Source of the DNA: Bacteriovoracaceae bacterium
Lineage (GTDB): Bacteria > Bdellovibrionota > Bacteriovoracia > Bacteriovoracales > Bacteriovoracaceae
DNA: 64,000 nt
Assembly: GCA_021737405.1 (NCBI GenBank)
Contig: JAIPEG010000005.1
Span: 62,001 to 126,000 of the forward strand
Reading direction: 5' to 3'
Part shown: one piece after another, positions 37,609-54,288 of the stretch
Numbering within the stretch: position 1 is the first letter of the stretch
How the letters are laid out: each line of letters starts with the position of its first letter
Translations under genes and position numbers: made by a program
The notes under the pieces: model-generated
What the model saw: only the letters and a program-made list of their open reading frames with translations
The model's database searches: none
What the model was told of the DNA's origin: nothing

Positions 37609-38145
37609 ATGGAGAGGGCCATTCACTACGTTAAGAAATTTTTCACAACCAACTGGGGAAATGAGGCGCTTTATCTGACTATAACGGTTGCATTAATTGG
37701 GGCAATCTTTCCTCTTCAAAATAAAGTAAAGAATCTAGAGTCGAAAATGGCATTAATCCAATTATTTAATGAACCTGAGTATAAAAGCTCCCCCTTACCA
37801 GCTCCCCATGTTGATTATTTCAAGATTTTTAAAGAATTCTATTGTGGTATTTTCCAAAATCAAATCTTTACTCTTCACTTTACACCCAGTGGAAAAGTTT
37901 ACATATGGGCCCAGCACAAAAGTAACAGACCTTTTAATTTTCCACCAAAAGGAAAACCCCAATTCATCAACAATTATCACTTTTATAATGAGCATCTATA
38001 TTGGACGACAAACCTTTTTGGAGAAAAAATATCCTTTACCTCTCCGCTCATTTTAAGTTTAAATAAAGGGGCAAAGTTGGAGTTTCTTAAAAGTGATCAG
38101 GCCATTTTCAGTCCTCTTTCCTGCTCCCTGATAGCTGACCTTTAA
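37609..38145 (+). CDS. Membrane-anchored protein, unrecognised
   Basis: 178 residues with one N-terminal helix (LYLTITVALIGAIFPL), a short coiled segment and a beta-rich soluble domain with two cysteines. TATACT (37598-37603) ends five bases before the ATG, suggesting a leaderless or nearly leaderless mRNA. It overlaps the convergent radical SAM gene by 38 bases. No family is recognised. Confidence 0.65.
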   Translation: MERAIHYVKKFFTTNWGNEALYLTITVALIGAIFPLQNKVKNLESKMALIQLFNEPEYKSSPLPAPHVDYFKIFKEFYCGIFQNQIFTLHFTPSGKVYIWAQHKSNRPFNFPPKGKPQFINNYHFYNEHLYWTTNLFGEKISFTSPLILSLNKGAKLEFLKSDQAIFSPLSCSLIADL

Positions 38146-39232
38146 TCAAACTTAGAAGAGTCGCTTTATCGATTTTAGGAAGATCATTCGCAACAGATAA
38201 GAAGAAACGTGTCAGACGTTTTAATTTTGTTTCGTCACAATTTTTAAGAACACTCATTGCCACTTCAAATTCCTCTTCAGGAGGAAGGCTCCACAAAGAC
38301 AATTCTTTTGGTTCATAACAATTATTTATGGTTAGACGCATGGCCATAGAGTCGACGAAATCAACAACGACAGGAAGTTCATGGTAATTATTTTTCATAA
38401 CAAGAAAATGCAGAGTCAAAGATAGCGGACTTAGCCCTCTCTCATCTCTGCTCTTTTCATACGTCTTTAAGTCCTTAATTGTTTGCAAGACAACCTCTAG
38501 ACGTCCTTCCTTTCTGATACTTGAATAAAGCACAGGATCAAGGCTATCTACAGAACATATGATATTTTTAATCTTTATCTTATCAAGCTGGGATTTAATT
38601 TTATCTGTTAATTTCCAATGAGCATTTGTCGTAAAGGACCAAAGTACATCGGGGTTAACCTCTGAGATCTTTTCGATTAAACGATAAGTATCCTTTTGAA
38701 TAAAAGGTTCTCCACTTAGTAACTCTATCTCTTTAATATACGGGAAAAAATCAGTCTCAGCCCGATCCCAAAAACCAATCCGATCATAAAGACCATTTTC
38801 CATCATCCAAATATCACACATCGTACACTTTAGATTGCATTGACCATTAAAGTTTGCGGTGAGTTTTAAAAGCGGCTGACTCTGGATCTCACTAAGCTCG
38901 ATTAAGGGGAATAATGTGTAGTTATCTGGTGAGAGATGACAGGAGTCATTCTTAATTTCTTTAGCACAAGTTGAAATATTGCCTGTTAAAAACTCTTGTC
39001 TCCAAGATTTAAGTTCATCACTATTCCAAATTTCGTCCAAAGATTTTCCCAATATATTTCCGACAACATGCTTCGTTCCCTTTTGCCTACAAACACCAAC
39101 ATCTCCATTAGGGTTCAGTATTAGATTAGTAAAAGGAACAATACAGAAATTTTCAGGTAAATTATTTTCAGAAAAAAGCTCCAAAAGCTCAAGCGGCGTG
39201 GGGTACTTTGGTGATGCTTGATTGTCTTTCAT
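38108..39232 (-). CDS. Twitch-type radical SAM protein (paralogue A)
   Basis: 374 residues. The core radical SAM motif is C132-x3-C136-x2-C139 in GQCNLKCTMCD, with LLSGEPF as the SAM-binding GGEP equivalent. The N-terminal 110 residues carry a SPASM/twitch-like auxiliary-cluster region placed before the core: FC30 and C48 (IVPFTNLILNPNGDVGVC), then C89 and C98. A fifth cysteine present in its close paralogue at 50543 is Ser101 here. Members usually act on peptides. It has no ribosome site; TAAAAT ends six bases before the ATG (leaderless). It diverges from the first S24/S26 gene. Confidence 0.85.
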   Translation of the reverse strand: MKDNQASPKYPTPLELLELFSENNLPENFCIVPFTNLILNPNGDVGVCRQKGTKHVVGNILGKSLDEIWNSDELKSWRQEFLTGNISTCAKEIKNDSCHLSPDNYTLFPLIELSEIQSQPLLKLTANFNGQCNLKCTMCDIWMMENGLYDRIGFWDRAETDFFPYIKEIELLSGEPFIQKDTYRLIEKISEVNPDVLWSFTTNAHWKLTDKIKSQLDKIKIKNIICSVDSLDPVLYSSIRKEGRLEVVLQTIKDLKTYEKSRDERGLSPLSLTLHFLVMKNNYHELPVVVDFVDSMAMRLTINNCYEPKELSLWSLPPEEEFEVAMSVLKNCDETKLKRLTRFFLSVANDLPKIDKATLLSLIKGQLSGSRKED

Positions 39233-39238
39233 TCTAGT

Positions 39239-39244
39239 ATTTTA
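39239..39244 (-). promoter_or_regulatory. Extended -10 of leaderless radical SAM gene
   Basis: On the minus strand TGATAAAAT (TGn plus TAAAAT) is followed by six bases and then the ATG at 39232. Transcription from this box would start at or next to the start codon. Confidence 0.55.
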
Positions 39245-39296
39245 TCACTATATTTATTTGATACCAATTGCTTTAAGGATCTGTAATTTTCTGTGA

Positions 39297-39302
39297 TACA
39301 AT
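39297..39302 (+). promoter_or_regulatory. Extended -10 of leaderless S24/S26 gene
   Basis: TGATACAAT places TACAAT six bases before ATG 39309, so the transcript would begin at or near the start codon. No Shine-Dalgarno is present. The 12-mer TGTGATACAATT is shared with the promoter at 11734. Confidence 0.55.
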
Positions 39303-39308
39303 TTTTCC

Positions 39309-39692
39309 ATGAATGACACCCAAGACCTTTGTTTTGTTAAGGTTTATACTGATAAATTCTATTTCACAGAGGCGAAGAAGTTCCTTGCACTAAAGGGCCC
39401 AATTGGCATGAACATTGTTCATGACTCGATGTATCCTCTCCTAAAATTTGGTACTTCCATTACTATTGCAAAGGGAAGCCCTGAAAAAGGGATGCTGGCC
39501 TGCTTTTGGAAAGAAGACATTATCCATCCTTGTGTTATCTCAAGAATTAATTCAGACAAATCATTTGAAGTTAAATTCTTAAAAACTAAAGATATTGAAG
39601 GACCTATTCCAGAAATGTTTTTTCTAGGTAAGATTATTTCTCCAAAAATTAGTTTGTGGTGGCGCCTTAAACTATGGCTTTTGACCAAATAG
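39309..39692 (+). CDS. S24/S26-fold mini-peptidase (first copy)
   Basis: 127 residues with the LexA/signal-peptidase-type nucleophile block VHDSMYPLLKFGTSITIAKG (Ser40). There is no DNA-binding or transmembrane segment at the N-terminus, but a basic hydrophobic C-terminal helix (LWWRLKLWLL) could touch the membrane. Where the family usually has the catalytic Lys or His before Arg-Ile, this copy reads VISRI. Such short proteins occur beside PqqD and radical SAM genes, where they may cut leader peptides. It is flanked by two radical SAM genes on the opposite strand. Confidence 0.75.
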   Translation: MNDTQDLCFVKVYTDKFYFTEAKKFLALKGPIGMNIVHDSMYPLLKFGTSITIAKGSPEKGMLACFWKEDIIHPCVISRINSDKSFEVKFLKTKDIEGPIPEMFFLGKIISPKISLWWRLKLWLLTK

Positions 39693-41045
39693 AAAACGCG
39701 CCCTTTTACATTCTATGAAAAATTCTTTTAATTCAGGAAAAATGTTTAAAAAAGATTTTTTATAGCGTTTATCATACTCGTTTACAAATCCAAAGAAGTC
39801 AGCCCGAAGAGAATCTCGCTCGGACTCATCGACCTCCTCCCTTAACCAGTTAAAGATTCTTCGACACTTATTTTTTTCAAAATCATCAAAAACACTACTC
39901 TTATCCATAATTTCGAGTGCAGAAATCATAGGTCCATGAAGATCGGAGCCCCCAATATTGGCCCTCAAATACTCAGGTTCACGCAGGTAACTCATATCTA
40001 AGATCAGATTGGGAAAAGATTTTTTTAATTTTTCTATTTCCAGAATCAATTTATCAATTTTAGGAAGTGAGAAGATACTAAAAGTCACCATCACGGTAAT
40101 AAACTCACAGGTCTGGCTTTCTAAAAAAATCTGAAGATTATGGAGAAAGGTATCATAATTAAGGCCCTCTCTAATATACTCGGCCTGTGCACCAACAGAG
40201 TCTACACTGGCATAAAGGCTAAAAGACTTGATCGCTTTTTTTTGATTTATCTCTTTTAAGAGAGAGAGAAAGCGCTCAATACGATCTCTCTCAACACCGA
40301 GGTTTGAATTTACAGCAAGCTCAAGTTTTTTTTGAGGATGGTCCAAGCAGTAATTAAGGACATTATAAGTATGTTTGCTTAAGAGAGGCTCCCCTCCTGT
40401 TATACGAAAGACATGTAAATTATCCCAAATCTCTGGCAACCACTTCCAAAAGGCCAATACGAATGGATTCTCTTTAGCTTTAAATGAGCGCTTCCATTCG
40501 GGATCTTCCATCCTGTGGTAAGAGCGCTGTACAGGATAAGGACCAAATTCTTGCATTTCTTTTTTGATGGAACTACTAATATCAGCAAGACAATAACTAC
40601 AAGAGAAGTTACAAGCATTATCAAACATCACTTCTAAATAATGAGGCGCATAATTCCCCTTGCTTCCACAGTCCAAAACATCTTGAAAATAAGGATAGGA
40701 CCAAGGATCAAGTGACTTCACGATACGATCGGAATAGTGCTCCCCAGGGGTATCCTCTATATTCCAGCAATAATCACATTCTTTTGGCCTAATTCCCCTA
40801 AGCATTTCCTCTCGCACTTCCTTCTTAAAGGCCGTGTTGTGGAGTGCCCAGGGGTTTGTTAAAACAGTGGCTTCATCAATAGCATGACGCTTAGGGTGAT
40901 GGCAGCTATGATTTGTCCCATGAAGGAGGTCCAGAGTAACTTGGGTCCATTTTGCCAAGCAGAAACTCTTTGAAACCTTATTGATTCTATCAACTTTCTC
41001 TTTTTGAGTAACTTCCTTCAAATTTCCCTTCTTCATAATTTGCAA
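39672..41045 (-). CDS. Twitch-type radical SAM protein (divergent)
   Basis: 457 residues. The radical SAM motif is C145-x3-C149-x2-C152 (CNFSCSYC), followed by FRITGGEPLL. The N-terminal auxiliary region has C29, C48, C90 and C93, in SFCLAKW, HSCHHP and KECDYCWNIED, a complete four-cysteine set. TTG 41045 has AAAGG 6 nt upstream; ATG 41036 is an alternative. It shares only the overall plan with the other two radical SAM proteins. It probably modifies a peptide, given the adjacent PqqD-like and S24/S26 genes. Its end overlaps the S24/S26 gene by 21 bases. Confidence 0.87.
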   Translation of the reverse strand: MQIMKKGNLKEVTQKEKVDRINKVSKSFCLAKWTQVTLDLLHGTNHSCHHPKRHAIDEATVLTNPWALHNTAFKKEVREEMLRGIRPKECDYCWNIEDTPGEHYSDRIVKSLDPWSYPYFQDVLDCGSKGNYAPHYLEVMFDNACNFSCSYCLADISSSIKKEMQEFGPYPVQRSYHRMEDPEWKRSFKAKENPFVLAFWKWLPEIWDNLHVFRITGGEPLLSKHTYNVLNYCLDHPQKKLELAVNSNLGVERDRIERFLSLLKEINQKKAIKSFSLYASVDSVGAQAEYIREGLNYDTFLHNLQIFLESQTCEFITVMVTFSIFSLPKIDKLILEIEKLKKSFPNLILDMSYLREPEYLRANIGGSDLHGPMISALEIMDKSSVFDDFEKNKCRRIFNWLREEVDESERDSLRADFFGFVNEYDKRYKKSFLNIFPELKEFFIECKRARFLFGQKP

Positions 41046-41164
41046 AGGAGGCCTTTGCTCAATTATTATAAACTAATCAATATTATGTCACTCCTCCTAG
41101 GACAAATCAAAGTACTGTAGAGGATTGTAAGCTAGCCCTTAAAAAGCATGGAAAGGATATATTT

Positions 41165-41452
41165 ATGAGCACCAACATTCTTGATAAAACAGTGAAAGTT
41201 CAATCTGACCTAGTGGCAAGAAATAATGATGATGGAACTATTGTTGTTATGAAGATGGATGAGTCTAATCTATTCTTTAAAATCGAAGGCATTGCTGCAG
41301 AAGTTTGGAAGGGTCTAAATCAAAATAAAAACTTGAAACAAATACACGCTGATATCAAATCAACATATGATGTAGAAGATACTCAACTCCTTGGTGACAT
41401 AGAAAACTTTATCAATGATTTAAAAAGTAGAGACCTCGTTCAAATTAGCTAG
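41165..41452 (+). CDS. PqqD-family peptide-binding protein
   Basis: 95 residues. The PqqD/RRE winged-helix pattern is clear: VVMKMDESNLFFKIEGIAAEVWKGL, then ADIKSTYDV and a final helix with LQ/LV hydrophobics. PqqD-like proteins bind leader peptides and present them to radical SAM enzymes. GGAAAGG lies about 8 nt before the ATG. It faces the radical SAM gene divergently (120-base gap) and abuts the convergent GT4 gene with no gap. Confidence 0.9.
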   Translation: MSTNILDKTVKVQSDLVARNNDDGTIVVMKMDESNLFFKIEGIAAEVWKGLNQNKNLKQIHADIKSTYDVEDTQLLGDIENFINDLKSRDLVQIS

Positions 41453-42850
41453 CTAATTTGGAAGCTCTTTTTTGTTAATAAGATAACCATTTTCTTTTGC
41501 CTCCAGAAGAGAACCTTCCCAAGGTCCTTTATGAGGATCCTTCACGCTTAATATCTTTTCGGATTTATCAAAGGGTTTTGCCCAAGGTAACAAATAACCA
41601 TTCTCAAGACTAAAGTCTTCCTCAGTCTGTTTTGCTCCATAACACTTAAAAAAAGCATGAGCATTTGGATCACTAAAGCCAGTAAAGATTCTCTGGGCCA
41701 TGAGGTCACTCATGGACTCGTGTTCTTTTCGAAAATCTAATAAATCCTGAACAATTCCCCTTGTCTTTAAAGGCTCCTTTTTAGGAACAGAGTCAGCGAT
41801 ACTTTTTTGAATCAATTCTATGGCGTGATCTTGTGTGGCAAAACTCTTTCTCTCTATGGGGTCTTTTAGGTCAATGGCTTTTTTAAAAGCTTTAACTAAG
41901 TCAGTGATGTTAATAAATGGCCCAAAGGAGCCTAGTCTCACTTTGACCTCACAAACTCTTTCAGGATAGCGAGAGATAAAATTCTGATGACCTCCCCAAT
42001 TAGTTAAGACAAGTTTTCCACCATTCTCAAGGGCAGACAGTGCGGCCATACCAAAATTCTCATCACTATGGAGGCTCGGTCCACAAAAGAGGAAAGCCTT
42101 ATTCTGGAGCACCTTATAAATCTCATCTCTCTTAACAAATCCATGAAAACAGACATCTGCAATAGATTGTTCTTTGACTAAAGATTTGAGCTCATCAAGG
42201 TAACCGAGCTCACGTTGTCCCATATTGGGAGAACCTAGGTTGTCCTCTTTTCCAAATATATGAAGCCTCATTTCATTAAAATCTTTTTTTAATAACTTGA
42301 AGGCCATTAAAAGAGAATGTAAGTTTTTCTGACGTGATATTCGGCCAACATAGACAAAGTCTTCGATTCTACCGTCATTTAGCTTTGGTAACATTTTTAA
42401 ATTTTGTTTTGTAAAAAAGGTTCCCATTTTAAAACATGCATTCTCATGAGCAAGTAAAAGGCTATCTTTATCGCCATCACAAGTTCCAATAAAACGATCA
42501 TTTGTTGTAAGTAGATCGCCAAGGCCAAGAGCATGCAAAGGCCAAAGTCCCACAGTAGCAAGACCATGCAAATAAAAATACCAAGGGCTATCAACTTTTA
42601 AGTGCCCTCGAATTAAGTTGAGGTACTGGGCCATCTTACCGTTAAAGGCTGAAACAACGATTAAATCGCTTTCAAGAAAGTCTTTAATATACTTTTGAGG
42701 AGAATCACTATCAACGTCAATGGTTACGAAATTTACATTTTCTCTTTTAGAAAAGGATAACCAACTCTCTTGAATGCAAGGAAGAATTTCTTCCATTGAA
42801 GTCCAAACGAGATTCTGGCTAGTTTTTAAAAAGATAATCTTTTTCATCAC
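41453..42850 (-). CDS. GT4-family glycosyltransferase (second in operon)
   Basis: 465 residues. The GT-B C-terminal half has DFVYVGRISRQKNLHSLLMAF and SDENFGMAALSALENGGKLV, the usual EX7E-type nucleotide-sugar site. The last 110 residues are a non-catalytic extension. It is the final gene of a tightly packed five-gene operon. It shares the layout (Ser-x-H-x-D/E-NFGMA versus DEDYGMAPAEAL) with the GT4 at 46581, so they may be distant paralogues. Confidence 0.88.
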   Translation of the reverse strand: MMKKIIFLKTSQNLVWTSMEEILPCIQESWLSFSKRENVNFVTIDVDSDSPQKYIKDFLESDLIVVSAFNGKMAQYLNLIRGHLKVDSPWYFYLHGLATVGLWPLHALGLGDLLTTNDRFIGTCDGDKDSLLLAHENACFKMGTFFTKQNLKMLPKLNDGRIEDFVYVGRISRQKNLHSLLMAFKLLKKDFNEMRLHIFGKEDNLGSPNMGQRELGYLDELKSLVKEQSIADVCFHGFVKRDEIYKVLQNKAFLFCGPSLHSDENFGMAALSALENGGKLVLTNWGGHQNFISRYPERVCEVKVRLGSFGPFINITDLVKAFKKAIDLKDPIERKSFATQDHAIELIQKSIADSVPKKEPLKTRGIVQDLLDFRKEHESMSDLMAQRIFTGFSDPNAHAFFKCYGAKQTEEDFSLENGYLLPWAKPFDKSEKILSVKDPHKGPWEGSLLEAKENGYLINKKELPN

Positions 42851-44529
42851 AGTTCAACTTTGGAAATCAATAAATCATTGAAAACCAAATGGTTCACAAC
42901 AGAATGATTAAGGAAGTGAAGTGCATCCTCAGGTGATTCTACGATAGGTTCCCCCATAATATTAAGACTCGTATTAAGAAGAATGGGCAACATTCCTTTT
43001 TCTTGGCAAGTTTTAATTAATTTATGAAATGCAGGGTTTTGCTGACTCATAACAGTTTGCATACGGCATGTTTTATCGACGTGAGAAACTTCTTTTAAAA
43101 GTTCGTAATATTGACTACGAATAGGAGTCGCAAAAGACATAAATGGGTTTTGAAAGCCTTCCTCAACGTCAAAATATTCATGACTCTCTTCCCACAGTAC
43201 ACTTGCCCCATAGGGTCTAAAGTTTTCCCGAAATTTAATGGTTTGATTCAACTGATCTTTCAAACCTGGCCTATCAGGACGGGCCAAAAGACTTCGATGA
43301 CCAAGGGATCGAGGTCCACACTCGCTTCTTCCCTGAAACCAAGCAATGACTTCCCCCTTCTTTAGTAAGGAGACAACCAAATGGAGATCTTTAAGCGGTA
43401 CCGTATAAAAGTCCTTAAAAAAGAGGTGAGCCTCATTACCATAATTCCACCCAAAAGCCGAAGTTTGCAATTCATACGGAATTTTTTTGGGGGTTATATT
43501 TTTGTCTAAAAACGCCTTACCAAAAGCTAGGCCCAAACTTATCCCCTCATCTCCTGGATTAGGTGGAATATAAATATCTGGAAAGACTTTTTTCTGATAG
43601 GCTTTAAAATTGGCAGTGCAATTAAGGGCACACCCTCCCGTAAAAACCAAGGGAAGATGATTTAAAGATCTCGCGGTGATCTTTTCAAATACTCTCATAA
43701 GATTTACTTCAAATGCCTCTTGAACAGTAGCCGCCTCATCTTGCCAATAAGATTGATTCCCGTTTTTTTGCCAAATACCTTTATCTTGTCCAGTAAAGCC
43801 TTTCGTCCAATCGATATTTCTTTGTAAGGTGACATGGTCTTGATTCTTAAACGATGAATGACCAAAGGAAGCCAACCCCATCACTTTACCAGAACTTAGA
43901 TTATCATTAAATATTAACTGAGCGACCTTTTCATAATAGGAACCAATACCATTACTAAACTTTTTCGATGAGTCAGAGTAATTTTCATAAACAAGTTCCT
44001 CTTGAAAGAGGGGTGTTAAATGATGTCCATCCCACTCATATAGACTTGTATGCTCAATACTATTGTCGGCAAAAGTCTTCAAACCATATTCTTTAAACTG
44101 GCTAGATTCATATTCTTTTAAAGAGCTTCCTCCCCCATCCATGACCAGTATCAATGCCTTTTCAAAGGGCATGAGGGCAAGTGAGCTAAAAGCGTGAGCA
44201 AGATGATGAGGAATGAATAAGATATTTTCATTGAATTTGGAGCAAAATAAATCTAATTTTTTATTTTTAAGAAGTTCATAGAACATTCCCTTCTTCTGAT
44301 AAAGATCCTCCACAAACCGTGGAGTTGTGATATCTCTATTTTCAGCGATACCTTCATAATCCGATGGGCACGCCTTGATCTTTTTTAAGGCGATCTCAGG
44401 CCACTGTCCAGACCATTTCTTTCGACTAAGCCGCTCCGATAGTAAAGTGGTCCACTGATACTGATCCCCTAGAGTCAGCTCAGTAATATTACTATTATAA
44501 ATGGTTTTACCTAGTCCAAGATATTTCAT
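42847..44529 (-). CDS. NodU/CmcH-family O-carbamoyltransferase
   Basis: 560 residues. The N-terminal Kae1/TobZ-like domain has HHLAHAFSSLALMPFEKALILVMDGGGSS with the metal-binding His pair, and TGGCALNCTAN. The C-terminal YrdC-like portion carries GRSECGPRSLGHRSLLARP and KFRENFRPYGASVL. These enzymes transfer a carbamoyl group from carbamoyl phosphate to a sugar or antibiotic hydroxyl. Flanking GT4 genes suggest carbamoylation of the glycan made here. Its start directly follows the stop of the upstream nucleotidyltransferase-like gene. Confidence 0.93.
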   Translation of the reverse strand: MKYLGLGKTIYNSNITELTLGDQYQWTTLLSERLSRKKWSGQWPEIALKKIKACPSDYEGIAENRDITTPRFVEDLYQKKGMFYELLKNKKLDLFCSKFNENILFIPHHLAHAFSSLALMPFEKALILVMDGGGSSLKEYESSQFKEYGLKTFADNSIEHTSLYEWDGHHLTPLFQEELVYENYSDSSKKFSNGIGSYYEKVAQLIFNDNLSSGKVMGLASFGHSSFKNQDHVTLQRNIDWTKGFTGQDKGIWQKNGNQSYWQDEAATVQEAFEVNLMRVFEKITARSLNHLPLVFTGGCALNCTANFKAYQKKVFPDIYIPPNPGDEGISLGLAFGKAFLDKNITPKKIPYELQTSAFGWNYGNEAHLFFKDFYTVPLKDLHLVVSLLKKGEVIAWFQGRSECGPRSLGHRSLLARPDRPGLKDQLNQTIKFRENFRPYGASVLWEESHEYFDVEEGFQNPFMSFATPIRSQYYELLKEVSHVDKTCRMQTVMSQQNPAFHKLIKTCQEKGMLPILLNTSLNIMGEPIVESPEDALHFLNHSVVNHLVFNDLLISKVEL

Positions 44530-45555
44530 TTAATTTTTATCTACCTTTTCAGAAGGCCGCTGACCTTCACTAAGCTTCCTTAAGCCATTTAAGATTGACT
44601 CATCGACATTGTCCAATCTACTGACACAATTAATTAAATTTTCAGTATGAATAAAGAAGTTAATATCAACACCTGAGTGCATCCACTGGCCATAGAGCCC
44701 CCAAATCTCCCACTTTATCTGACAATCAAAAAGTTTTCTATATATTTTGGGCTGCTCTTTCAAGTTGTCCAAGTCATCTTCAAAACCATTAAAAAGTAGG
44801 GCAGGCCCTATCCAAATCTGGGGATAACAGCATAGGAGAAAAACTCTTAAATGAGGGTGATCCAAATAGAACTGATTAAGACCAACATTATCTTTAAAAT
44901 TTATTCTAAAGAATGTCTCAAAAAAATGATCGATTCGCTCATTTGCTTTAATGAAGTCACAAAAAAGGTGGGACTTAAGAATTTTTAATACATCTCTCCA
45001 ATCTTTAGTGATTTTATTTGCCTCATCAATTTCTAATAGAGAAAGGAAACGATTGATTTTTTTCTCACGACTTAAGAAGTGCCCTTTCATCTTATGCAGA
45101 TCATTTTTCAACCAATTTAGTGAAAAAACGACTTTTTCGATATTTGTAATTTTTTTCTGAAAATTATAGTCAATCTTTTGCAAGAGGATTGGGTCCCTCG
45201 ATAACTCGATAGGATTTGCAAATTTTAAAAAATCATGAAGTCCTTGTTGATCGTAATAAGCGATTTCTCCAAGGTGAGGAAAGAGAACTTTAAATTTACC
45301 AAGAGTTCTTTCTATTTTTTGAATAGAGGAGCGATCGAATTTTTCATTAAAGTAATAGGTTAGGTCGATATCACTATGACCAAAGACAATGTCCTTGAAG
45401 AAAAGACTATTTCGAAACCAAATTTGCCCCTTTTCATTACCTAGCCACTTTTTAAAAAGCCAAAAGGGTGTCACATAGAAGAAATCACATATGGGTGCTG
45501 GTAAGAAGTTACCTAGTTTGATAATAGACCACTGGAATATACCCAATCTCTCCAT
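44530..45555 (-). CDS. Nucleotidyltransferase-fold protein, unassigned
   Basis: 341 residues. SLFFKDIVFGHSDIDLTYYF contains the G-x-SD-x-D block of the DNA polymerase beta-like nucleotidyltransferase fold, here near residue 60. The remaining 270 residues are helical and match nothing I know. It lies between an unrecognised gene and the carbamoyltransferase gene, with almost no spacing. It might transfer a nucleotide to a sugar, lipid or peptide, or be a regulatory member. Confidence 0.6.
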   Translation of the reverse strand: MERLGIFQWSIIKLGNFLPAPICDFFYVTPFWLFKKWLGNEKGQIWFRNSLFFKDIVFGHSDIDLTYYFNEKFDRSSIQKIERTLGKFKVLFPHLGEIAYYDQQGLHDFLKFANPIELSRDPILLQKIDYNFQKKITNIEKVVFSLNWLKNDLHKMKGHFLSREKKINRFLSLLEIDEANKITKDWRDVLKILKSHLFCDFIKANERIDHFFETFFRINFKDNVGLNQFYLDHPHLRVFLLCCYPQIWIGPALLFNGFEDDLDNLKEQPKIYRKLFDCQIKWEIWGLYGQWMHSGVDINFFIHTENLINCVSRLDNVDESILNGLRKLSEGQRPSEKVDKN

Positions 45556-45565
45556 TTATGAGTTC

Positions 45566-46588
45566 CTATCTTGGTCCATTTTTACTTAAGAACATGGCCC
45601 GTCCTAAATCACGGCTTAATTGCATTAAATCTTTTGAATAATAAAAAACCTTGAAATAATCCTCAAGATCACGATTTAATGATGGTTCTTCTTGAAAGAG
45701 AGAACCTTTTGGAAACTCAAGTTCTTCAAAGAGCCTCTTCCTTATGTCTTCTTGCCAATTTTTAACTTCAAAGGGCGAGAGAGTCATTCCATGATTTGGA
45801 CTTAGCCGAATAATATTATCAATATTTGTTTCAACATTTTCAATAGCAGGACTTTTCCATCCACTTCTTAGAAAGTTATGAACAACACTTGAGTCAGAAC
45901 AAAATAATTTCTGTGGATTAGCATTTATAAACACAGATTCTCGCTCATTTAAATGACCTAACTGAGAGTAATTAATAACTCTGACATCACCCTTAAATAT
46001 ATCTTTTAAAGGTTCAAGGGACTCTGCTCTGTCATAGTCAAGATAATCCTCTCCCCTCATTTGATTATAAAACGGAAGAATTGATAAAGAGCGAGTATCA
46101 TTTTTAAACTTAAGGACTAAGCTTTGCAATAAATCACTATCCTGGAGTTCATGTAAGTTTAAAATTAAGACTAAATCCTTTTTATCAAAACCTTTCTTAC
46201 CGATGGTTACAGTTTTATATAGGAGAACTGACTCACACCATGTTTTTGGAATTATAAAGGCGAGATCCTCATGAATAAATATCTTTGAATGGAATCCGCT
46301 AGGTTCTGGAAATCTTTGAAAGAACCTTAATAAAAGTACAACTCCGTCCCTAAATAAGACGTGACTAAAAGAATTTAGATTTTTCAGTTCTTTTACTTCA
46401 AAAGAAAACAGAGGTCTTAATCTTGAAAAGTAAGGACGAGAGTGCGGTGATAAAAACTCTAAATACTTCTCATCAAGAGTATCTTCTTTATTCCAGTTCT
46501 CACGACGATTAAAGAGATTGGTTTCTTCATTGGCCTCATCGCCATAGAAAGTCAGCTCATCTAATAAGGGATTTATAACTTTACTCAT
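45566..46588 (-). CDS. Unrecognised protein of the glycan operon
   Basis: I start it at ATG 46588, which overlaps the upstream GT4 gene by 8 bases. The frame is open further (to 46771), but only as read-through of that gene. The 340-residue protein is rich in aromatic and charged residues, with no signal peptide or membrane helix. The segment FSCDS-like at LFCSDSSVVHNFLRSGWKSP and the final DYFKVFYYSKDLM are features without known match. Its position suggests a cytoplasmic role in building the cluster product. Confidence 0.6.
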   Translation of the reverse strand: MSKVINPLLDELTFYGDEANEETNLFNRRENWNKEDTLDEKYLEFLSPHSRPYFSRLRPLFSFEVKELKNLNSFSHVLFRDGVVLLLRFFQRFPEPSGFHSKIFIHEDLAFIIPKTWCESVLLYKTVTIGKKGFDKKDLVLILNLHELQDSDLLQSLVLKFKNDTRSLSILPFYNQMRGEDYLDYDRAESLEPLKDIFKGDVRVINYSQLGHLNERESVFINANPQKLFCSDSSVVHNFLRSGWKSPAIENVETNIDNIIRLSPNHGMTLSPFEVKNWQEDIRKRLFEELEFPKGSLFQEEPSLNRDLEDYFKVFYYSKDLMQLSRDLGRAMFLSKNGPR

Positions 46589-47906
46589 TTTCAAAAACCT
46601 CTTTATAAGCCGTCCAGTATGGATGATATAAGTCTTTATAAAATAGACTATAGTTTCCACCAGGACCCCGAAAAGGTGCTCTTGGGTTATTTTCAAATAG
46701 AGAGCAAAGTTTAAAGAACTTCTCATTAAATCCCGAAAACTCAGTAATTTCACGCTTACAAAGACTTTCAATTTGTTTAGAAATTTCAGTTATTCCGAGA
46801 TTATTGTGAGAATTTTTTGAAAGTGCCCTTCTGTCTGTCCCCATTGATAATGTGGCCATTGCCTTAACGGCCATGGCCTTTTGAGGCTTATGTCGTTGCT
46901 CGCCCGGCTCAACAGGGACAAGTCCAATAAAACTGGGCGAATAAGATTTAAAAGAGCTATAACCACCCCAGTCGGTCAAAACACAGGGAAGTCCACAGGA
47001 TAGAGCTTCGGCGGGGGCCATTCCATAATCCTCATCATTATGACAACTAAGAGAAGTAAAGACATCAGAAGCACAATATGTACCAAGTAAATCTTCCTGA
47101 GAGAGGTTTCCTAGATAAACGATCTTCCCTGCTTCAACCAGGCCAAAAAGATCCCTTAAACATTCTTCCCAGTGAAAGAAAAAAGTTCCATCTAATGCTT
47201 CCTTACCCAGATAGGGAATTCCTAAGTCATCCATAGGTCCACTTAGAATAAGCTTAGCCTTTGAATCAAAATTTTTAGAATAGGCAGAAAAAGTATAAAT
47301 TAAGTCGATAATATTTTTTTGATAACTCAGCCTTCCACTATAGTAGAAAATAGTTTCACCATCTTTGAAGTTATACTTTTTTCGATAGGTTTGACGAATT
47401 TCGGATGAAAAGAAGAAGGACGTTTCATTTACAGGAAAGGCCATCACTGAAACATTTTCATCTGTTGCGCTTTTAAGCAGTGATTTAACCAAATCTCTTT
47501 GTTTGTGAGATGCCGCAACGAAATGTAATTTTAGTTTATTTCCCGTTTTTCTGATTTCTTCTTCGACGCCACCCCACATAGGAGCATGCAATATAAAATC
47601 ACCAAAAAGGTGAATAACAAATGGAGGACATTCATTCTTTGCACAATTATTTAATAAGAATTTAATAAGACCATAAGGATGAGGGTAATGATCGAGCCAA
47701 ACGACAAGGTCAAACTCCCCCTCTAGAATCCGTTTTCCCAAATCATGAGATTCTAAATGACCTGCTTGAGAGCTATAGACTAAAGTTTCGACTTCATGTC
47801 CTTCTCTTTCACAAGAGTTAGTATATGCCTGCTCCAAATTGCTGGTAATACTCTGGCAACTTCTCCAAAAGGAGGAGTCCTTTTTTTTGACAAGAGCTAA
47901 CTTCAT
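46581..47906 (-). CDS. GT4-family glycosyltransferase (first in operon)
   Basis: 441 residues, the promoter-proximal gene of the 47906-41453 operon. The GT-B features are IFYYSGRLSYQKNIIDLI, KAKLILSGPMDDLG and DEDYGMAPAEALSCGLPCVLTDWGG. The N-terminal domain holds FDLVVWLDHYPHPYG and FVIHLFGDF, plausible acceptor-side loops. A C-terminal tail of about 60 residues ends in YKDLYHPYWTAYKEV. Sugar specificity is unknown. Confidence 0.88.
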   Translation of the reverse strand: MKLALVKKKDSSFWRSCQSITSNLEQAYTNSCEREGHEVETLVYSSQAGHLESHDLGKRILEGEFDLVVWLDHYPHPYGLIKFLLNNCAKNECPPFVIHLFGDFILHAPMWGGVEEEIRKTGNKLKLHFVAASHKQRDLVKSLLKSATDENVSVMAFPVNETSFFFSSEIRQTYRKKYNFKDGETIFYYSGRLSYQKNIIDLIYTFSAYSKNFDSKAKLILSGPMDDLGIPYLGKEALDGTFFFHWEECLRDLFGLVEAGKIVYLGNLSQEDLLGTYCASDVFTSLSCHNDEDYGMAPAEALSCGLPCVLTDWGGYSSFKSYSPSFIGLVPVEPGEQRHKPQKAMAVKAMATLSMGTDRRALSKNSHNNLGITEISKQIESLCKREITEFSGFNEKFFKLCSLFENNPRAPFRGPGGNYSLFYKDLYHPYWTAYKEVFENE

Positions 47907-47951
47907 AATTGATTGGCCCCAAACAAGGAAGTTTATTTTGATGACTTCTAT

Positions 47952-47961
47952 ATGATATCAT
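47952..47961. promoter_or_regulatory. Palindrome between divergent cluster genes
   Basis: ATGATATCAT is a perfect 10-base palindrome in the 97-base gap between the GT4 operon (minus) and the S24/S26-exporter operon (plus). It could be a shared operator or a chance AT-rich palindrome. Confidence 0.25.
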
Positions 47962-48003
47962 GGGTTTAGAACCTAACCAATTACCTAATGATGGAATATT
48001 CAA

Positions 48004-48378
48004 ATGGCCCAAAAAGGCTCAAAAGACTTTGATATAGAGGTTTTGAAGCAAAAAATTGCTTCAGGTCGTGACCATACTTTAACAGTAGTAAGCGACTCTA
48101 TGATTCCCCTCATTGCCGTTGGGGAAAGCATTACTGTAGGCCCCATTGAAAATGTGGCAACTCTAAAGGTCTTCGATATTGTCCTTTTTTTCCAAGGAGC
48201 CCGCTTAAATGTCCATTACTTGACTAGAATAGACCATGAGCAAGGTCAATACATCACCAGATCCCTGAAAAATCCTCATGAACAGGACTATCCGCTCAAG
48301 CGAAGTGATATTTTAGGAGTCATAACAAATAAAAAACTAAGCATTTGGCACAAGATAAAAATTCTTCTGTTAAGCTAA
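48004..48378 (+). CDS. S24/S26-fold mini-peptidase (second copy)
   Basis: 124 residues. The nucleophile block is TVVSDSMIPLIAVGESITVG with Ser32. The position that usually carries the catalytic Lys or His (K/H-R-I) reads LTRI. The C-terminal KLSIWHKIKILLL is a basic amphipathic helix like that of the copy at 39309. The exporter permease gene starts 7 bases after its stop, so it is likely cotranscribed with the ABC exporter. It may process a leader before or during export. Confidence 0.75.
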   Translation: MAQKGSKDFDIEVLKQKIASGRDHTLTVVSDSMIPLIAVGESITVGPIENVATLKVFDIVLFFQGARLNVHYLTRIDHEQGQYITRSLKNPHEQDYPLKRSDILGVITNKKLSIWHKIKILLLS

Positions 48379-48385
48379 ATATAAT

Positions 48386-49144
48386 ATGAAAATCTTTTTA
48401 CGCCAGCTCATTTCCTTAACCTTTGCCAATATGAAGGCCCGCTATCGAAAAACCATCGCGGGTTTTATATGGGTCATTCTTAATCCAATTATTCTTTATT
48501 CTGTTCAGAGTGTGGTCTTTAGAAAAATTCTAAGAATTGATGTACCAGATTATGCCCTCTTTCTCATGGGAGGCCTTCTTCCCTGGATATTTATAACGAA
48601 CACTTTAGAGATGAGTATTCCCTACCTTTACAATTCTCATAATCTCTTAAGAGGCTTCAGAATAAATCCATTTCTCTTGATACTTTGCCAAGTCTTAGAT
48701 AATTTCTTTAATTTTATCGTAGCCTTTCTTGTTATCCTTATTCCGGTTACATTATTTTCAACTTACACTCATTCAGCCTTTTACTTATTACCCTTACCAA
48801 TACTTGTTCTTCTAATAGGGATTGCTTCTATTTCATCTCTAGCAAGCTTAATGAACGTTTTTTATAGAGACACAAAATTTGTTCTAACTTTTGTTTTAAA
48901 CATCATGTACTTCATTACCCCTATTTTTTACCCTGTCGAATTTGTTCCTGAAAAATACCGCTGGGTAATTGATCTAAACCCCCTATTCTATCTTATTGAA
49001 GCCTTTAGAAATGCAGTGTATGGCTACTCACCAGAACTCTTTTGGCCGGCACTTGCAAAGGCAGCCCTCGTTTCGACAGGCCTAGCAGTAATATCTTATC
49101 TCTATTGGAGTCGCAGGAAAAATGACCTCTATTACTACATCTAA
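48386..49144 (+). CDS. Wzm/TagG-type ABC exporter permease
   Basis: 252 residues with six transmembrane segments. The N-terminal LTFANMKARYRKTIAGFIWVILNP is the conserved cytoplasmic entry helix of polysaccharide ABC-2 permeases. LNIMYFITPIFYPVEFVPEKYRWV with LNPLFYLIEAFRNAVYG is the family signature between the last helices. It probably moves a lipid-linked glycan or glycoconjugate across the inner membrane. The ATPase gene overlaps its end by 23 bases. Confidence 0.92.
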   Translation: MKIFLRQLISLTFANMKARYRKTIAGFIWVILNPIILYSVQSVVFRKILRIDVPDYALFLMGGLLPWIFITNTLEMSIPYLYNSHNLLRGFRINPFLLILCQVLDNFFNFIVAFLVILIPVTLFSTYTHSAFYLLPLPILVLLIGIASISSLASLMNVFYRDTKFVLTFVLNIMYFITPIFYPVEFVPEKYRWVIDLNPLFYLIEAFRNAVYGYSPELFWPALAKAALVSTGLAVISYLYWSRRKNDLYYYI

Positions 49145-49922
49145 GACTCCTATTCTAAAAGTAGAAAACCTCTACCTCTCTTTTGATTTAGATCTTCAAA
49201 AGGGACACACCATTAGGGATATCTTTGTAAATCTTATCTCGCATCCGGTTCACTCACTACTTGGAAGAAAAGAGGTTCATAGAGTTCTAGAGGATATAAG
49301 CTTTGAGTTAAATATTGGCGAGAAAGTCGCCATCATCGGAGAAAATGGCTCCGGAAAAACAAGTCTTTGTCGATGTGTTGCTGGCATGATTATGCCGCAG
49401 CAAGGGGAGATAAAAACAAACGGGGTTATTCAAGCTGTATTCTCAACGGCCAGTGCTATTCACTTCTCCCTAACAGGAAGAGAAAATGCCTTCCTCTTAG
49501 GTGAGTTAATATTCCCAAAACTTAGTAAGACAGAATTAAAGGACGCTATTGAGGACGCTCTCGATTTTTCAGAACTAGGAAAATTTCTTGAAGCACCATT
49601 TTTTACTTATTCTCGTGGAATGCAAGCACGTTTATTTTTATCAGTCGTAACCGCCCGACCTACGGAGCTTTTAATCTTAGATGAAGTCTATGATGGCGCA
49701 GATGAATTTTTCCAAATGAAGATGCAAAATCGCATGAACAAAGTCATCGAAAAATCAGGTGCTGTTCTTTTCATCTCTCACAATGCCGAGCTTGTTAATG
49801 AAATATGTAATCGAGCTATTGTTCTTGATAAAAGAAAAATTATTTACGATGGTAAGAACGTCGCAAAAGGCATTGCTCTTTATAAGTCCCTCCATGTTGG
49901 AGGCTACAAAACTGGCCAGTAA
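49122..49922 (+). CDS. Wzt/TagH-type ABC exporter ATPase
   Basis: 266 residues. Walker A is GENGSGKTSL, the signature is the glycan-type YSRGMQARLF, and Walker B is ELLILDEVYDGADEFF. The N-terminal LYLSFDLDLQKGHTIRDIFVNL stretch is typical of polysaccharide exporters. It lacks the C-terminal carbohydrate-binding domain of O-antigen Wzt, so it resembles KpsT-like short forms. It is coupled to the permease by gene overlap. Confidence 0.9.
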   Translation: MTSITTSKTPILKVENLYLSFDLDLQKGHTIRDIFVNLISHPVHSLLGRKEVHRVLEDISFELNIGEKVAIIGENGSGKTSLCRCVAGMIMPQQGEIKTNGVIQAVFSTASAIHFSLTGRENAFLLGELIFPKLSKTELKDAIEDALDFSELGKFLEAPFFTYSRGMQARLFLSVVTARPTELLILDEVYDGADEFFQMKMQNRMNKVIEKSGAVLFISHNAELVNEICNRAIVLDKRKIIYDGKNVAKGIALYKSLHVGGYKTGQ

Positions 49923-50017
49923 CTCCCTTATTATTATAAGCCACCTTAAATCATTAGTGTAAAATCAGGTACTTAGACTGGCCGTAATCATTTGTTTTTC
50001 TCTGAGTAACAAAGGGT

Positions 50018-50023
50018 TATAAT
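50018..50023 (+). promoter_or_regulatory. Consensus -10 upstream of the S74-domain gene
   Basis: TATAAT lies 43 bases before ATG 50066. The -35 region is only T-rich (TTTTTC with 17-base spacing). A well-spaced AGGAG precedes the ATG. Confidence 0.5.
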
Positions 50024-50065
50024 GAGGAGAGCTATTTATTTAAAAACGGGATAGGAGTCAGAAAC

Positions 50066-50512
50066 ATGGCGGATTCATCTGATAATACAAAGAAATTACC
50101 TTATAGTTTTGGTGGCATCAACGATTTCAATTTAGAAGAAATTGAAAATGAAGTCCTCAATGACAGTGTCTATCTCGACGTTTTCGCAGGATCTGATGTT
50201 CGTTTCAAAGAAAATGTAAAACCATTTACTGGAGGTTTACAGAATATCTTAAATCTTCAATCCTATACCTATAACTACAAGACAAAAGAATTTACTGATA
50301 AGAATTTTCCTGAAGAAGAACAACTTGGTCTAATGGCCCAGGATGTAGAGAAAGTCGCTCCGATCGCAGTAGCTACTGATGATTCAGGCTTAAAATATGT
50401 TAATTATGCACGATTGGCGCCGATGCTCATCGAATCTATAAAAGACCTTCATCATATTATCGAAGAGCAATCAAAGAAAATTTCTGAGCTTGAAAAAAAG
50501 ATCAAAAATTAA
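50066..50512 (+). CDS. Stand-alone S74 endosialidase-chaperone domain protein
   Basis: 148 residues, almost all an intramolecular-chaperone domain of the tail-spike type: GSDVRFKENVKPF with the autocleavage Ser43-Asp44 and Lys48, then SYTYNYK, EEQLGLMAQDVEKVAPIAV and LKYVNYARLAPMLIESIKDL. It ends in a coiled coil (HHIIEEQSKKISELEKKIKN). In phage and bacterial fibres this domain sits at the C-terminus, trimerises the fibre and cuts itself off. Here only about 40 residues precede it, with no fibre, signal peptide or membrane helix. It lies 30 bases before a radical SAM gene. It could act in trans on a fibre or be a substrate of the cluster. Confidence 0.88.
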   Translation: MADSSDNTKKLPYSFGGINDFNLEEIENEVLNDSVYLDVFAGSDVRFKENVKPFTGGLQNILNLQSYTYNYKTKEFTDKNFPEEEQLGLMAQDVEKVAPIAVATDDSGLKYVNYARLAPMLIESIKDLHHIIEEQSKKISELEKKIKN

Positions 50513-50542
50513 TAGGGCAAAGATTATCCGCCCACCACTCTA

Positions 50543-51694
50543 ATGATGGACCCCCTTAAGCACCATCTCATTTCTACTCGTAGAAAGGATTTGGAAAAAA
50601 ATCTTGATCAAATCAATAATGCAGGATTTGATCCTAAGAAGTTTTGCCTTATGCCTTTCGTTAATATTATCTTAGAACCAAATGGCTCAGTTGGCCTTTG
50701 CCGCCACAAGGGAACTGAGCACTCGTTAGGAAACCTTAATAATAGTACCTGGAATGAAATCTGGAATGGGCCAAAGGCAATGGCCTGGAGAGAGGAGTTC
50801 CTCGTTGGCAAGCCTCAAGAATGTCTTAAAGAGCTCAGGGATCAAAGTTGTAACCTCTGCCCAGAACTTGGGAAAATGTTTCCTGAAAACCCTAAGGCAT
50901 TTTTAAAAAAAGAAATTGAAAGGCCTCTTAGATTAACTGCTAACTTTAATGGTCAATGTAACCTTCAATGCCAAATGTGTGACGTATGGCAACTTCCAAA
51001 TGGTTTTTATACGGAGGAAAACTTTTGGAAAGATGCTCGCGAATCTCTCTTTCCCCATTTACAAGAGATCGATATGCTTTCTGGAGAACCATTTATCCAG
51101 GCAGATACCTACAAATTAATTAATGAAGTGAGCAGTGTTAATCCAAACTGTCTGTGGTCAATTACGACAAACGCTCACTGGCGTTTAAATTCAAAGGTTA
51201 AAACTCATCTCGACAAAATAAAAATAAAAAATCTAATACTCTCGATTGATAGTCTTGATGAAAATGTTTATGCAAAGATTCGCTATCCTGGAAAACTCCA
51301 GACTGTTTTAAATACAGTAGAAGATCTTAGAGAATATGAACAGGTTAGAGTTTCTGAAGGTAAAACCGCCTTAAACTTTAATCTAAATTTTGTTGTGCAA
51401 AAAGATAATTGGCGAGAAATACCGAGTGTCATTGATTACTGCTTAAAACGAAACCTACACCCATTTATCACCTTTTGTTATATACCTTCTGAGCACTCAC
51501 TTCTCAATTACAAAGAAAGTCAGCGAGTAGAATGTTTAAACTCAATGATTGGTACCTTTAATTGGGGTGAGATCTGCTTGTCTCACAGAGTGATTACACC
51601 CTTGATGCAATCTCTTCAACATGTCGACAAAGCCCAACTTCTAGCTAAAATGAAAGAAGTCAAATTAGAATATGAGGCCTTAAACGTCTTATAA
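50543..51694 (+). CDS. Twitch-type radical SAM protein (paralogue B)
   Basis: 383 residues, clearly paralogous to the protein at 38108 over the full length. The core motif is C139-x3-C143-x2-C146 (CNLQCQMC) and the SAM loop is MLSGEPF. The N-terminal auxiliary region holds C35, C53, C94, C103 and C106 (FCLMPF, GLCRHKG, QECLKEL, QSCNLCPEL), one Cys more than paralogue A. It follows the S74-domain gene by 30 bases and is probably cotranscribed with it. It likely modifies a peptide or protein. Confidence 0.88.
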   Translation: MMDPLKHHLISTRRKDLEKNLDQINNAGFDPKKFCLMPFVNIILEPNGSVGLCRHKGTEHSLGNLNNSTWNEIWNGPKAMAWREEFLVGKPQECLKELRDQSCNLCPELGKMFPENPKAFLKKEIERPLRLTANFNGQCNLQCQMCDVWQLPNGFYTEENFWKDARESLFPHLQEIDMLSGEPFIQADTYKLINEVSSVNPNCLWSITTNAHWRLNSKVKTHLDKIKIKNLILSIDSLDENVYAKIRYPGKLQTVLNTVEDLREYEQVRVSEGKTALNFNLNFVVQKDNWREIPSVIDYCLKRNLHPFITFCYIPSEHSLLNYKESQRVECLNSMIGTFNWGEICLSHRVITPLMQSLQHVDKAQLLAKMKEVKLEYEALNVL

Positions 51695-52750: not shown

Positions 52751-53539
52751 ATGCGACTAAGTAGCTATAAACTCAGCTTAATCCTCCTATTTCTACTTTT
52801 TCTTATTTTATATTTTCCTGTTATCGGAGAACCGTATACATTTGAAGAATTACGACTTACGTCATTTTTTCATACGGCCCCTAATATTGAGATTAACCCC
52901 TTTGCAACAGAGTTCCAAAAAGGCAGCCGCTTAACCCAGCTATGGAAAGAGTATTTCGCGATTTACCCCCCAGGACTCCTTATCTTTTATCGAGTTTGGT
53001 CAGTAATTTCTTTTGATAATGAACTCTTCATGAGACTTCCACTCTTGTGCCTCATTCTTTACGTCCTATATTCACTATTCTCCTTTATAAGACGATTCAC
53101 TGATAAAGATGAAGCCGCGTTAATCACCTTACTTATAGGACTTGGTCCGATTTGGTATGGCCCTCTTAGTAAAATAAGCCCTGAGAGTTTCAATTTGTGT
53201 TTTTCATTTCTTAGCTTAATGTTCTTTAGTGACTGCATAATGGCGAAGAGTTTTAGGCTTAAAAAAATTTGGATAATAAATATAATTGGATTAATTTGCT
53301 CTTATCATTTCACTTATATTATTTTTTCTCAAATTATAGCTTCGCAATTATGTCGCACGTATAATTCTCAAAAATTATTCATGTCCATATTTTCGGTCTT
53401 ATCAATTTTAAGCTTAATGACACTCATCATATTTAATAAATCAATTGACAACAATGTCCTCATCTTTTTTTGGCCTAAAGTAAAGGGTGATGAAGCCATT
53501 AGACTCATGAAATTTATCCTGCTTGGAGCTCAATCATGA
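52751..53539 (+). CDS. N-terminal half of a split GT39-like membrane protein
   Basis: 262 residues with about seven transmembrane segments. The loop FTFEELRLTSFF after the first helix and the later RLPLLCLILYVL correspond to FDELIQYD and RIPGILISLLS in the intact membrane glycosyltransferase at 22481. It ends abruptly after KFILLGAQS, at a point where the intact relative continues. The next gene, in a different frame, supplies the missing part. Confidence 0.65.
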   Translation: MRLSSYKLSLILLFLLFLILYFPVIGEPYTFEELRLTSFFHTAPNIEINPFATEFQKGSRLTQLWKEYFAIYPPGLLIFYRVWSVISFDNELFMRLPLLCLILYVLYSLFSFIRRFTDKDEAALITLLIGLGPIWYGPLSKISPESFNLCFSFLSLMFFSDCIMAKSFRLKKIWIINIIGLICSYHFTYIIFSQIIASQLCRTYNSQKLFMSIFSVLSILSLMTLIIFNKSIDNNVLIFFWPKVKGDEAIRLMKFILLGAQS

Positions 53540-54288
53540 TGAGTGACTTGAAGAATATAACTATCTTAATATTCTCAATTTTAACTTTCTTATCTGCTTC
53601 TTACCAATTCTATAATGGAGTGAAGTTTAAAAAACCTCTATCTATTGTCATTTCCATAAGTTTTCTGATTCCAATTTTTACATTACTCATTAGTTCTCTA
53701 CTTTCTTATAGGCTTGGTCACTGGACTCAATACATTTTCATTTATCCAATATCCCTTATTAATTTAATTAAGACTTCAATTGATTTAAAAATAACAAAAC
53801 CCTATAGGCTTTCAATTCTCTTATCAATCACACTTACTGGTCTTTTTAATTATGATAAAGTTTTTGTGAACGATATTGAAAGCACTCTTCTCACTGAGAA
53901 AGCACAAAGTCTCGCAAGAAAGAAAGGCGTTTTAAATATCTTTTTGACACTGGAGAATCCTTTCTACAAAGAGCTCGCCCTCTACTATGGAGGTATTCAC
54001 AAGAGTACTTCTATCATGACGCTTGATAGATTTGGCGATAAAAATCAGTTCGCAGACCTTATTGATCTCCACACAAAATACGATTTCATCAATTTTTTAT
54101 TTATTGAAAATGATCCTATCGAGAATGAATTTTCTAAAAAGGTCCTAGATATAATACTCAAGAATTATCGGATAAAAGACATAAGCTATGATCCTTTTGT
54201 CATTCATGATCATTTCTACCAAAACTATGAGAAGAAAATTTTAAAAAAAATGCTCCTTCAAAAAAAAACCCTGAATTTAAGGCATTAA
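53536..54288 (+). CDS. C-terminal half of a split GT39-like membrane protein
   Basis: 250 residues starting ATGATGAGT, overlapping the preceding stop by 4 bases. Four transmembrane segments are followed by a soluble tail. The order of helices plus SYRLGHWTQYIFIYPISLINL lines up with WSYFPVFELRYLAHTSIFFS in the protein at 22481. The pair is either a natural two-subunit form or one gene broken by a single-base change. It converges with the metzincin gene, overlapping it by 12 bases. Confidence 0.6.
   Translation: MMSDLKNITILIFSILTFLSASYQFYNGVKFKKPLSIVISISFLIPIFTLLISSLLSYRLGHWTQYIFIYPISLINLIKTSIDLKITKPYRLSILLSITLTGLFNYDKVFVNDIESTLLTEKAQSLARKKGVLNIFLTLENPFYKELALYYGGIHKSTSIMTLDRFGDKNQFADLIDLHTKYDFINFLFIENDPIENEFSKKVLDIILKNYRIKDISYDPFVIHDHFYQNYEKKILKKMLLQKKTLNLRH

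Follow-up and report, generated by a model that had tools for sequence, protein, structure and literature searches.

A conserved locus of putative peptide-modification and glycan-export genes in Bacteriovoracia, with a short S74 protein as candidate precursor

A window of 64,000 nucleotides from a Bacteriovoracaceae bacterium (assembly GCA_021737405.1, contig JAIPEG010000005.1, positions 62,001-126,000 of the forward strand) was analyzed; coordinates below refer to this window. At 38108-51694, genes for a PqqD-like protein, three radical S-adenosylmethionine (SAM) proteins and a short protein with an S74 domain were found together with genes for glycan assembly and export. All genes that a first-pass annotation had named for this 13.6 kb stretch were present at the coordinates and on the strands it gave. 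Comparison with 144 related genomes showed that the locus genes form one conserved system. Its substrate is probably encoded within the locus, where the strongest candidate for a precursor is the 148-amino-acid (aa) S74 protein (50066-50512 (+)).

Pfam scores confirmed the S74 protein (54.4 bits, cut-off 22) and the PqqD-like protein (41165-41452 (+); 44.7 bits, cut-off 23.4), and cut-offs were also passed by the two GT4 glycosyltransferases, the carbamoyltransferase, the ABC-2 permease and the ATPase described below. The three radical SAM proteins had all been annotated as twitch-type. Each carries a CxxxCxxC motif, which was kept in 126 of 126 radical SAM open reading frames (ORFs) longer than 230 aa; some genomes enter this count and those for UNK and GT4 twice, and the locus sets surveyed overlap. 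The twitch assignment held clearly for the protein at 39672-41045 (-) (NCBIfam NF033640, 299.8 bits, cut-off 170), which scored below the Pfam radical SAM cut-off (24.1 vs 29.5). The proteins at 38108-39232 (-) and 50543-51694 (+), the latter directly 3' of the S74 gene, remained below the twitch cut-off (102.5 and 94.1 bits, respectively). Both carry a SPASM domain N-terminal to the radical SAM domain, with both domains above Pfam cut-offs (SPASM 42.6 and Radical_SAM 36.9 bits for the former, 37.7 and 38.8 bits for the latter), and are here called SPASM-first enzymes.

The glycan side of the locus comprises a GT4 glycosyltransferase with an altered EX7E motif (41453-42850 (-); Pfam 69.4 bits), a NodU-type carbamoyltransferase (42847-44529 (-); 197.1 and 69.8 bits), a nucleotidyltransferase-like protein (NTP; 44530-45555 (-)), a protein of unknown family (UNK; 45566-46588 (-)) and a second GT4 protein with an intact motif (46581-47906 (-); 56.9 bits). 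On the opposite strand lie an ABC-2 permease (48386-49144 (+); PF01061, 55.9 bits) and an ABC ATPase (49122-49922 (+); PF00005, 72.6 bits), which by sequence resemble a Wzm/Wzt-type exporter with a predicted glycan cargo. The nucleotidyltransferase label is weak: an SD-x-D motif was present in the alignment, no convincing Pfam match was obtained and a profile search of the PDB found AF0614 only at E 0.016.

UNK proved as unfamiliar as first annotated. It had no Pfam match, a Pfam search with 36 family members returned only single weak matches, and a sequence profile found nothing in the PDB. Its AlphaFold model (mean pLDDT 91.1) gave no Foldseek match in the PDB at E <= 0.001; the best was the SenB glycosyltransferase (E 4.4e-3, TM 0.27-0.31). 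UNK is perhaps a diverged GT-B-like protein. Relatives of UNK occurred in 41 of the 144 genomes, mostly beside the same partner genes, and in 55 of 58 cases a GT4 gene lay directly upstream on the same strand. UNK represents a family that lacks a recognized relative and accompanies GT4 within a core for glycan export. Of the 55 upstream GT4 proteins, 51 retained the second Glu of EX7E. At 41453-42850 this residue is replaced by Ser (ENFGMAALS), and among GT4 ORFs not directly upstream of UNK a simple pattern found Glu at this site in only three of 43; the window copy is perhaps an inactive or atypical partner GT4.

Two proteins had been annotated as having an S24/S26 fold. Taken singly, neither was supported by Pfam: the protein at 39309-39692 (+) had no match and that at 48004-48378 (+) scored below the cut-off (16.7 vs 23.3). 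Support for the family of the latter came from its relatives (n = 14), of which seven matched Peptidase_S24 and seven Peptidase_S26 at E <= 0.1, and from a family profile that matched SEC11C (E 0.0011). A Sec11-like catalytic Ser and His were present in the 48004 copy and in 31 of 39 family members. The 39309 copy belongs to the eight members without the His, six of which also lack the Ser; it keeps the Ser and, judging by this alignment, is likely a pseudo-peptidase.

The distribution of the locus genes was followed with profile searches, using E <= 1.3e-52 for the full-length short S74 protein (next match, E 6.6e-32), E <= 7.9e-27 for strong PqqD (next best genome, 2.7e-18), E <= 1e-40 for twitch radical SAM and E <= 0.001 for NTP. 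The short S74 protein and strong PqqD each occurred in 21 of 144 genomes and together in 20, with 3.1 expected; many of the genomes are metagenome-assembled (MAGs) and mutually related, so probabilities from the hypergeometric test are not literal. All 21 short-S74 genomes contained UNK, as did all 21 strong-PqqD genomes, and 20 of the former contained twitch radical SAM and 20 NTP. G003, G013 and G073, from genera that include S74 genomes, had no UNK or NTP match, no twitch match at E <= 1e-40 and no full-length S74. Where both S74 and PqqD were present, they shared a contig in 19 of 20 genomes; in eight of these 19 they lay within 200 bp and in 10 within 2 kb, the farthest distance being 17.1 kb. 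In G020 the two genes, 0.8 kb apart, were on a different contig from UNK. The similar separation in G075 was set aside as a contig break, since G058 of the same genus has all three on one contig, which leaves only G020.

Gene order was also compared, in 40 wider stretches taken for 39 of the 40 other UNK-matching genomes (all but G074, with G056 represented twice). Genes were called as longest ORFs, by which some short genes were overlooked; PqqD in L104 and L115, for example, was recovered in those genomes by profile search. Within the genus of the window, gene order was kept as far as contigs reach, with one extra gene in L034, and in other genera these genes recurred in different arrangements. 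L109 had PqqD, S74 and a SPASM-type radical SAM gene in a row (gaps of 15 and 8 bp), and L138 had twitch radical SAM, PqqD and S74 in a row. A SPASM-type radical SAM gene directly followed S74 in 10 of 25 named loci. In L119, L123 and L125, PqqD and S74 formed a single protein, in which the conserved segment described below for S74 lies between both domains.

Further fusions joined the peptide side to the glycan side. A 934-aa protein in L112 combines a carbamoyltransferase with SPASM and radical SAM domains, and fusions of radical SAM with NTP were identified with our own profiles in L120 (779 aa) and L119 (695 aa). Because these proteins unite a carbamoyltransferase or NTP with radical SAM, the two sides look like parts of one pathway. 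The first-pass annotation had regarded two unrelated loci, or a lack of co-occurrence, as fatal to a joint system. Neither was found: PqqD, twitch radical SAM, NTP, UNK and short S74 co-occurred among the 144 genomes, and GT4, NodU and exporter genes, which were followed within the wider stretches, recurred beside the peptide genes. The only observation in favor of two unrelated loci that are neighbors by chance is the occurrence of the glycan core alone in some genomes; this extremely improbable explanation was contradicted by the fusions and by the reshuffled synteny of the same parts across genera, together with their co-occurrence.

The genes did not always travel as one set. A core of GT4, UNK, S26-like protein, Wzm and Wzt occurred without PqqD, radical SAM, NTP or S74 in L054, L056, L059, L061, L064 and L066. 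Since this core occurs without PqqD or radical SAM, the S26-like protein belongs with the glycan core. In L126-L130, twitch radical SAM and NTP genes, with eight twitch-type genes in L128, lay close together without PqqD and S74, forming a separate module. From these gene arrangements the system looks modular, with a glycan core, a radical SAM-NTP pair and a PqqD-S74 unit with SPASM-first radical SAM. The annotation of peptide and glycan genes as one set was partly supported: fusions and synteny link them, and GT4, UNK, S26-like and exporter genes also occur without PqqD or radical SAM. These separate occurrences, together with the contig arrangement in G020, would fit a capsule or O-antigen type locus of the ordinary kind, with radical SAM enzymes that act on sugars and with PqqD and S74 as an adjacent separate system. 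We consider this very unlikely in view of the restriction of short S74 and strong PqqD to UNK-bearing genomes, the fusions of carbamoyltransferase and NTP with radical SAM, and the PqqD-S74 fusions.

The evidence that singles out the S74 protein as candidate precursor lies mainly in its N-terminal segment, Y13 to D44 (50102-50197 (+)), with the consensus YxFGGIxEFNLEEIExEVLN[DE]SxYLDVFAGSD. Among 27 distinct sequences (out of 38 collected, the same genomes partly twice), the mean top-residue frequency was 0.83 for residues 13-44, 0.55 for residues 45-102 and 0.42 for residues 1-12. Y36, D38 to D44 and K48 were identical in all 27 sequences and L37 in 26. Between the window and L032, none of the 32 segment residues differed while 14 of the 32 codons had changed synonymously; between the window and L033, one residue and 12 of 32 codons had changed. 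Because residues were held while synonymous codons changed, the segment residues appear to be under selection. Two patterns derived from the segment, scanned against one genome for each of 84,980 species, matched 88 stretches, of which 25 were confirmed as loci; the scan detects close relatives only. By title, 21 of these were of Bacteriovorac-, Halobacteriovor- or Bdellovibrio-type, one was a deltaproteobacterium and three were named just "bacterium".

The possibility that the S74 protein is a broken fibre was also considered. Some S74 match (E <= 0.001) was present in 70 of 144 genomes and the full-length short protein in only 21, in all of which its open frame was short (147-178 aa). The other S74 matches listed (E >= 6.6e-32) began no earlier than model position 29, in most cases at 42-45, and generally belonged to longer ORFs. 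In view of this separation and of the short ORFs in 21 of 21 genomes, a broken fibre was rejected. The residues before the S74 domain were different in kind, with FGGI..FNLEEIE missing, in all eight readable long-ORF S74 domains (nine loci tried). Within the segment, leader and core parts were not distinguishable; what was observed is its conservation and its adjacency to, fusion with and co-occurrence with PqqD.

It had been proposed that the substrate is a larger protein or encoded elsewhere, because no short precursor gene fits the gaps. In agreement with this premise, none of 16 small gap ORFs was convincingly conserved across five same-genus loci and five of the 16 gave weak or local matches there. 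A separate short precursor in the gaps was accordingly rejected, with one ORF left as a possible gene, and neither a larger protein nor a substrate encoded elsewhere is required, the S74 protein being the best candidate. The ORF in question, 47818-48012 (-), runs out of frame across the 5' end of a GT4 gene and gave the best small-ORF match (64% over 53 aa in L031), with weaker matches in L032 and L034; it may be conserved upstream DNA or a small gene.

For precursors of cofactors such as PQQ and mycofactocin, a gene combination of this kind goes with a near-invariant segment. The joint presence of PqqD, radical SAM, peptidase-like and glycosyltransferase genes and the near-invariance of the S74 segment could thus indicate a similar pathway, in which a small redox cofactor is cut from the segment and decorated by the glycan genes and no polymer is made. 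The Wzm/Wzt-type exporter, two GT4 proteins and carbamoyltransferase suggest a larger exported glycan instead, which makes such a cofactor pathway quite unlikely.

The conserved segment of the candidate precursor ends in AGSDxxFK, and an SDxxxK motif formed by Ser43 (50192-50194 (+)), D44 and Lys48 (50207-50209 (+)) was present in 27 of 27 sequences. SDxxxK is described as the catalytic motif in S74 fibres of Bdellovibrio, and cleavage of the MAT fibre Bd3182 was shown experimentally and was lost in an S782A variant (PMC10769870). MyRF is described as being cut between P586 and S587, in a reaction that needs S587, K592 and trimer formation, and its intramolecular chaperone autocleavage (ICA) domain as making almost no contact to the upstream stalk (PMC8326128). 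A monomer model of the short S74 protein, with low confidence for residues 1-40, was closest to MyRF ICA (Foldseek E 1e-5), and profile matches in the PDB were 6f45, 8jov, 7dc3 and 3gud. By homology of Ser43 to MyRF S587 and Bd3182 S782 and of Lys48 to MyRF K592, the protein can probably cut itself, with the predicted cut at Gly42/Ser43. Only about 42 residues precede Ser43, and no upstream fibre or beta-helix client was found.

The near-invariant segment is also what would be expected of a docking site. The S74 protein might then be a trimeric scaffold rather than a substrate, with the segment docking PqqD and the enzymes, and the true substrate might be a lipid, a sugar or a different protein, for instance the pilin-like fibre encoded near radical SAM, PqqD and S74 genes in several loci. 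Trimer formation by the related MyRF domain agrees with such a role (PMC8326128). PqqD-like proteins are, however, reported to bind precursor peptides (PMC7470986), and the self-cleavage dyad, present in every sequence, would be needless for a mere scaffold. We regard a scaffold role as unlikely.

We judge it fairly probable that the locus encodes a single pathway for peptide plus glycan, conserved in Bacteriovoracia and some relatives, with the short S74 protein as precursor. As a first step, PqqD would bind the N-terminal segment; genetic support for this step is strong and the binding itself is predicted. The twitch and SPASM-first radical SAM enzymes would then modify conserved residues of the segment, perhaps in YLDVFAG. 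Based on the invariant Ser43-Lys48 dyad and on homologues with measured cleavage, the S74 domain is expected to trimerise and to cut itself at Gly42/Ser43, which would free a peptide of about 42 residues ending in YLDVFAG. In the last step, the product may become linked to a glycan or be made in parallel with it. GT4, UNK, NTP and carbamoyltransferase would build this glycan, the Ser-His S26-like protein might act in trimming, and Wzm/Wzt would serve as exporter. The near-invariance of the segment across genera suggests a fixed product and not a variable antibiotic; it could be, for example, a linker or a cofactor-like moiety. How peptide and glycan might be joined is more speculative. Hedgehog is attached to cholesterol, and by analogy a sugar or lipid acceptor might intercept the Gly42-Ser43 ester from self-cleavage, which would attach the radical-SAM-modified peptide to the glycan exported by Wzm/Wzt. 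This ester interception is distinctly improbable; if it occurs, it would be a new chemistry for peptide-glycan conjugates.

Several observations weigh against a joint pathway with the S74 protein as precursor. A precursor of ribosomally synthesized and post-translationally modified peptides (RiPPs) is usually a short leader-core peptide, and the candidate is a 148-aa protein with a folded tail. LDVFG precedes the S74 domain in at least one long fibre, so that YLDVFAG may in part represent a structural leftover. None of the models for known RiPP maturases reached its cut-off. PqqD and S74 are 8.6 kb apart in the window and 8 to 10 kb across its genus. G048 encodes the S74 protein but lacks NTP, strong PqqD and a twitch radical SAM match at E <= 1e-40; in G005, PqqD is present without an S74 match, on a contig that ends within the exporter. 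In genomes without short S74, UNK was found in 20, twitch radical SAM (E <= 1e-40) in 18 and NTP (E <= 0.001) in 25, and the PqqD count rose to 41 of 144 when weaker relatives (E <= 0.001) were included. Pfam detected both domains of the PqqD-S74 fusion in L119 and L123 and only S74 in L125, where our own PqqD profile scored 63 bits. With 42-48% identity to one another, the three fusions cluster in a quick tree and may therefore go back to one old fusion event. The cross-side fusions in L112, L120 and L119 occur in one genome (MAG) each; the radical SAM part in L112 scored 24.8 against a Pfam cut-off of 29.5, and in L120 and L119 Pfam scored the radical SAM or SPASM side below cut-off and saw no nucleotidyltransferase.

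The proposed pathway shares several features with RiPP pathways that depend on a RiPP recognition element (RRE), such as those for PQQ, lasso peptides and mycofactocin. These are a PqqD-like protein, radical SAM enzymes, an ABC exporter and a peptidase-like protein; in many genomes, PqqD is also encoded next to the candidate precursor. The pathway differs from them in that the candidate terminates in a folded S74 domain that probably cleaves itself, in the fusion of PqqD to S74 in three records and in the attached set for glycan assembly and export. S74, S24 and S26 do not occur in a review of RiPP leader proteases (PMC10885120). With the S74 autocleavage domains of phage tail fibres, MyRF and Bdellovibrio MAT fibres, the short protein shares, besides the resemblance to MyRF ICA, SDxxxK, the Ser-Lys dyad and a long C-terminal helix. 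Unlike these, it has no fibre and, by eye, no signal peptide, and its segment is linked to PqqD and radical SAM genes. An ABC-2 permease, an ATPase, two GT4 proteins and a NodU-type carbamoyltransferase are also found in glycan loci with Wzm/Wzt export, whereas UNK directly downstream of GT4, the S26-like protein in the core and the added peptide genes set the present locus apart. Fusions of RRE with PF02543 carbamoyltransferases and PF00535 glycosyltransferases have been reported (PMC12710340) and provide a precedent for peptide-glycan links. The fusions found here are of other kinds, carbamoyltransferase with radical SAM and PqqD with S74, and the glycosyltransferases are GT4. No description of the system was found among the matches listed in open-licence literature, where no paper contained both S74 and PqqD as whole words.

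If correct, the pathway would represent a new way of making a modified peptide: a RiPP-like pathway coupled to glycan export in bacteria of a predator lineage, in which a ribosomal peptide precursor has taken over, as its tail, a folding and self-cutting domain of phage fibres. The orphan twitch and SPASM-first radical SAM enzymes would gain a named 148-aa substrate, which would make their function directly testable.

Beside the locus, at 31330-36982 (+), lie genes for three proteins: one is thioredoxin-like, one is a TPR membrane protein and one is a pilin-like fibre of 822 aa that bears an N-methylation motif. Relatives of these recur near radical SAM, PqqD and S74 genes in several genomes. 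The TPR protein (32574-34328) resembles GT-C enzymes, but its assignment to them was rejected, as Pfam found TPR and otherwise single weak matches only. On the other side, at 52751-54288 (+), two overlapping membrane-protein ORFs of 262 and 250 aa resemble one split gene, and the same split is present in L032, L033 and L103.

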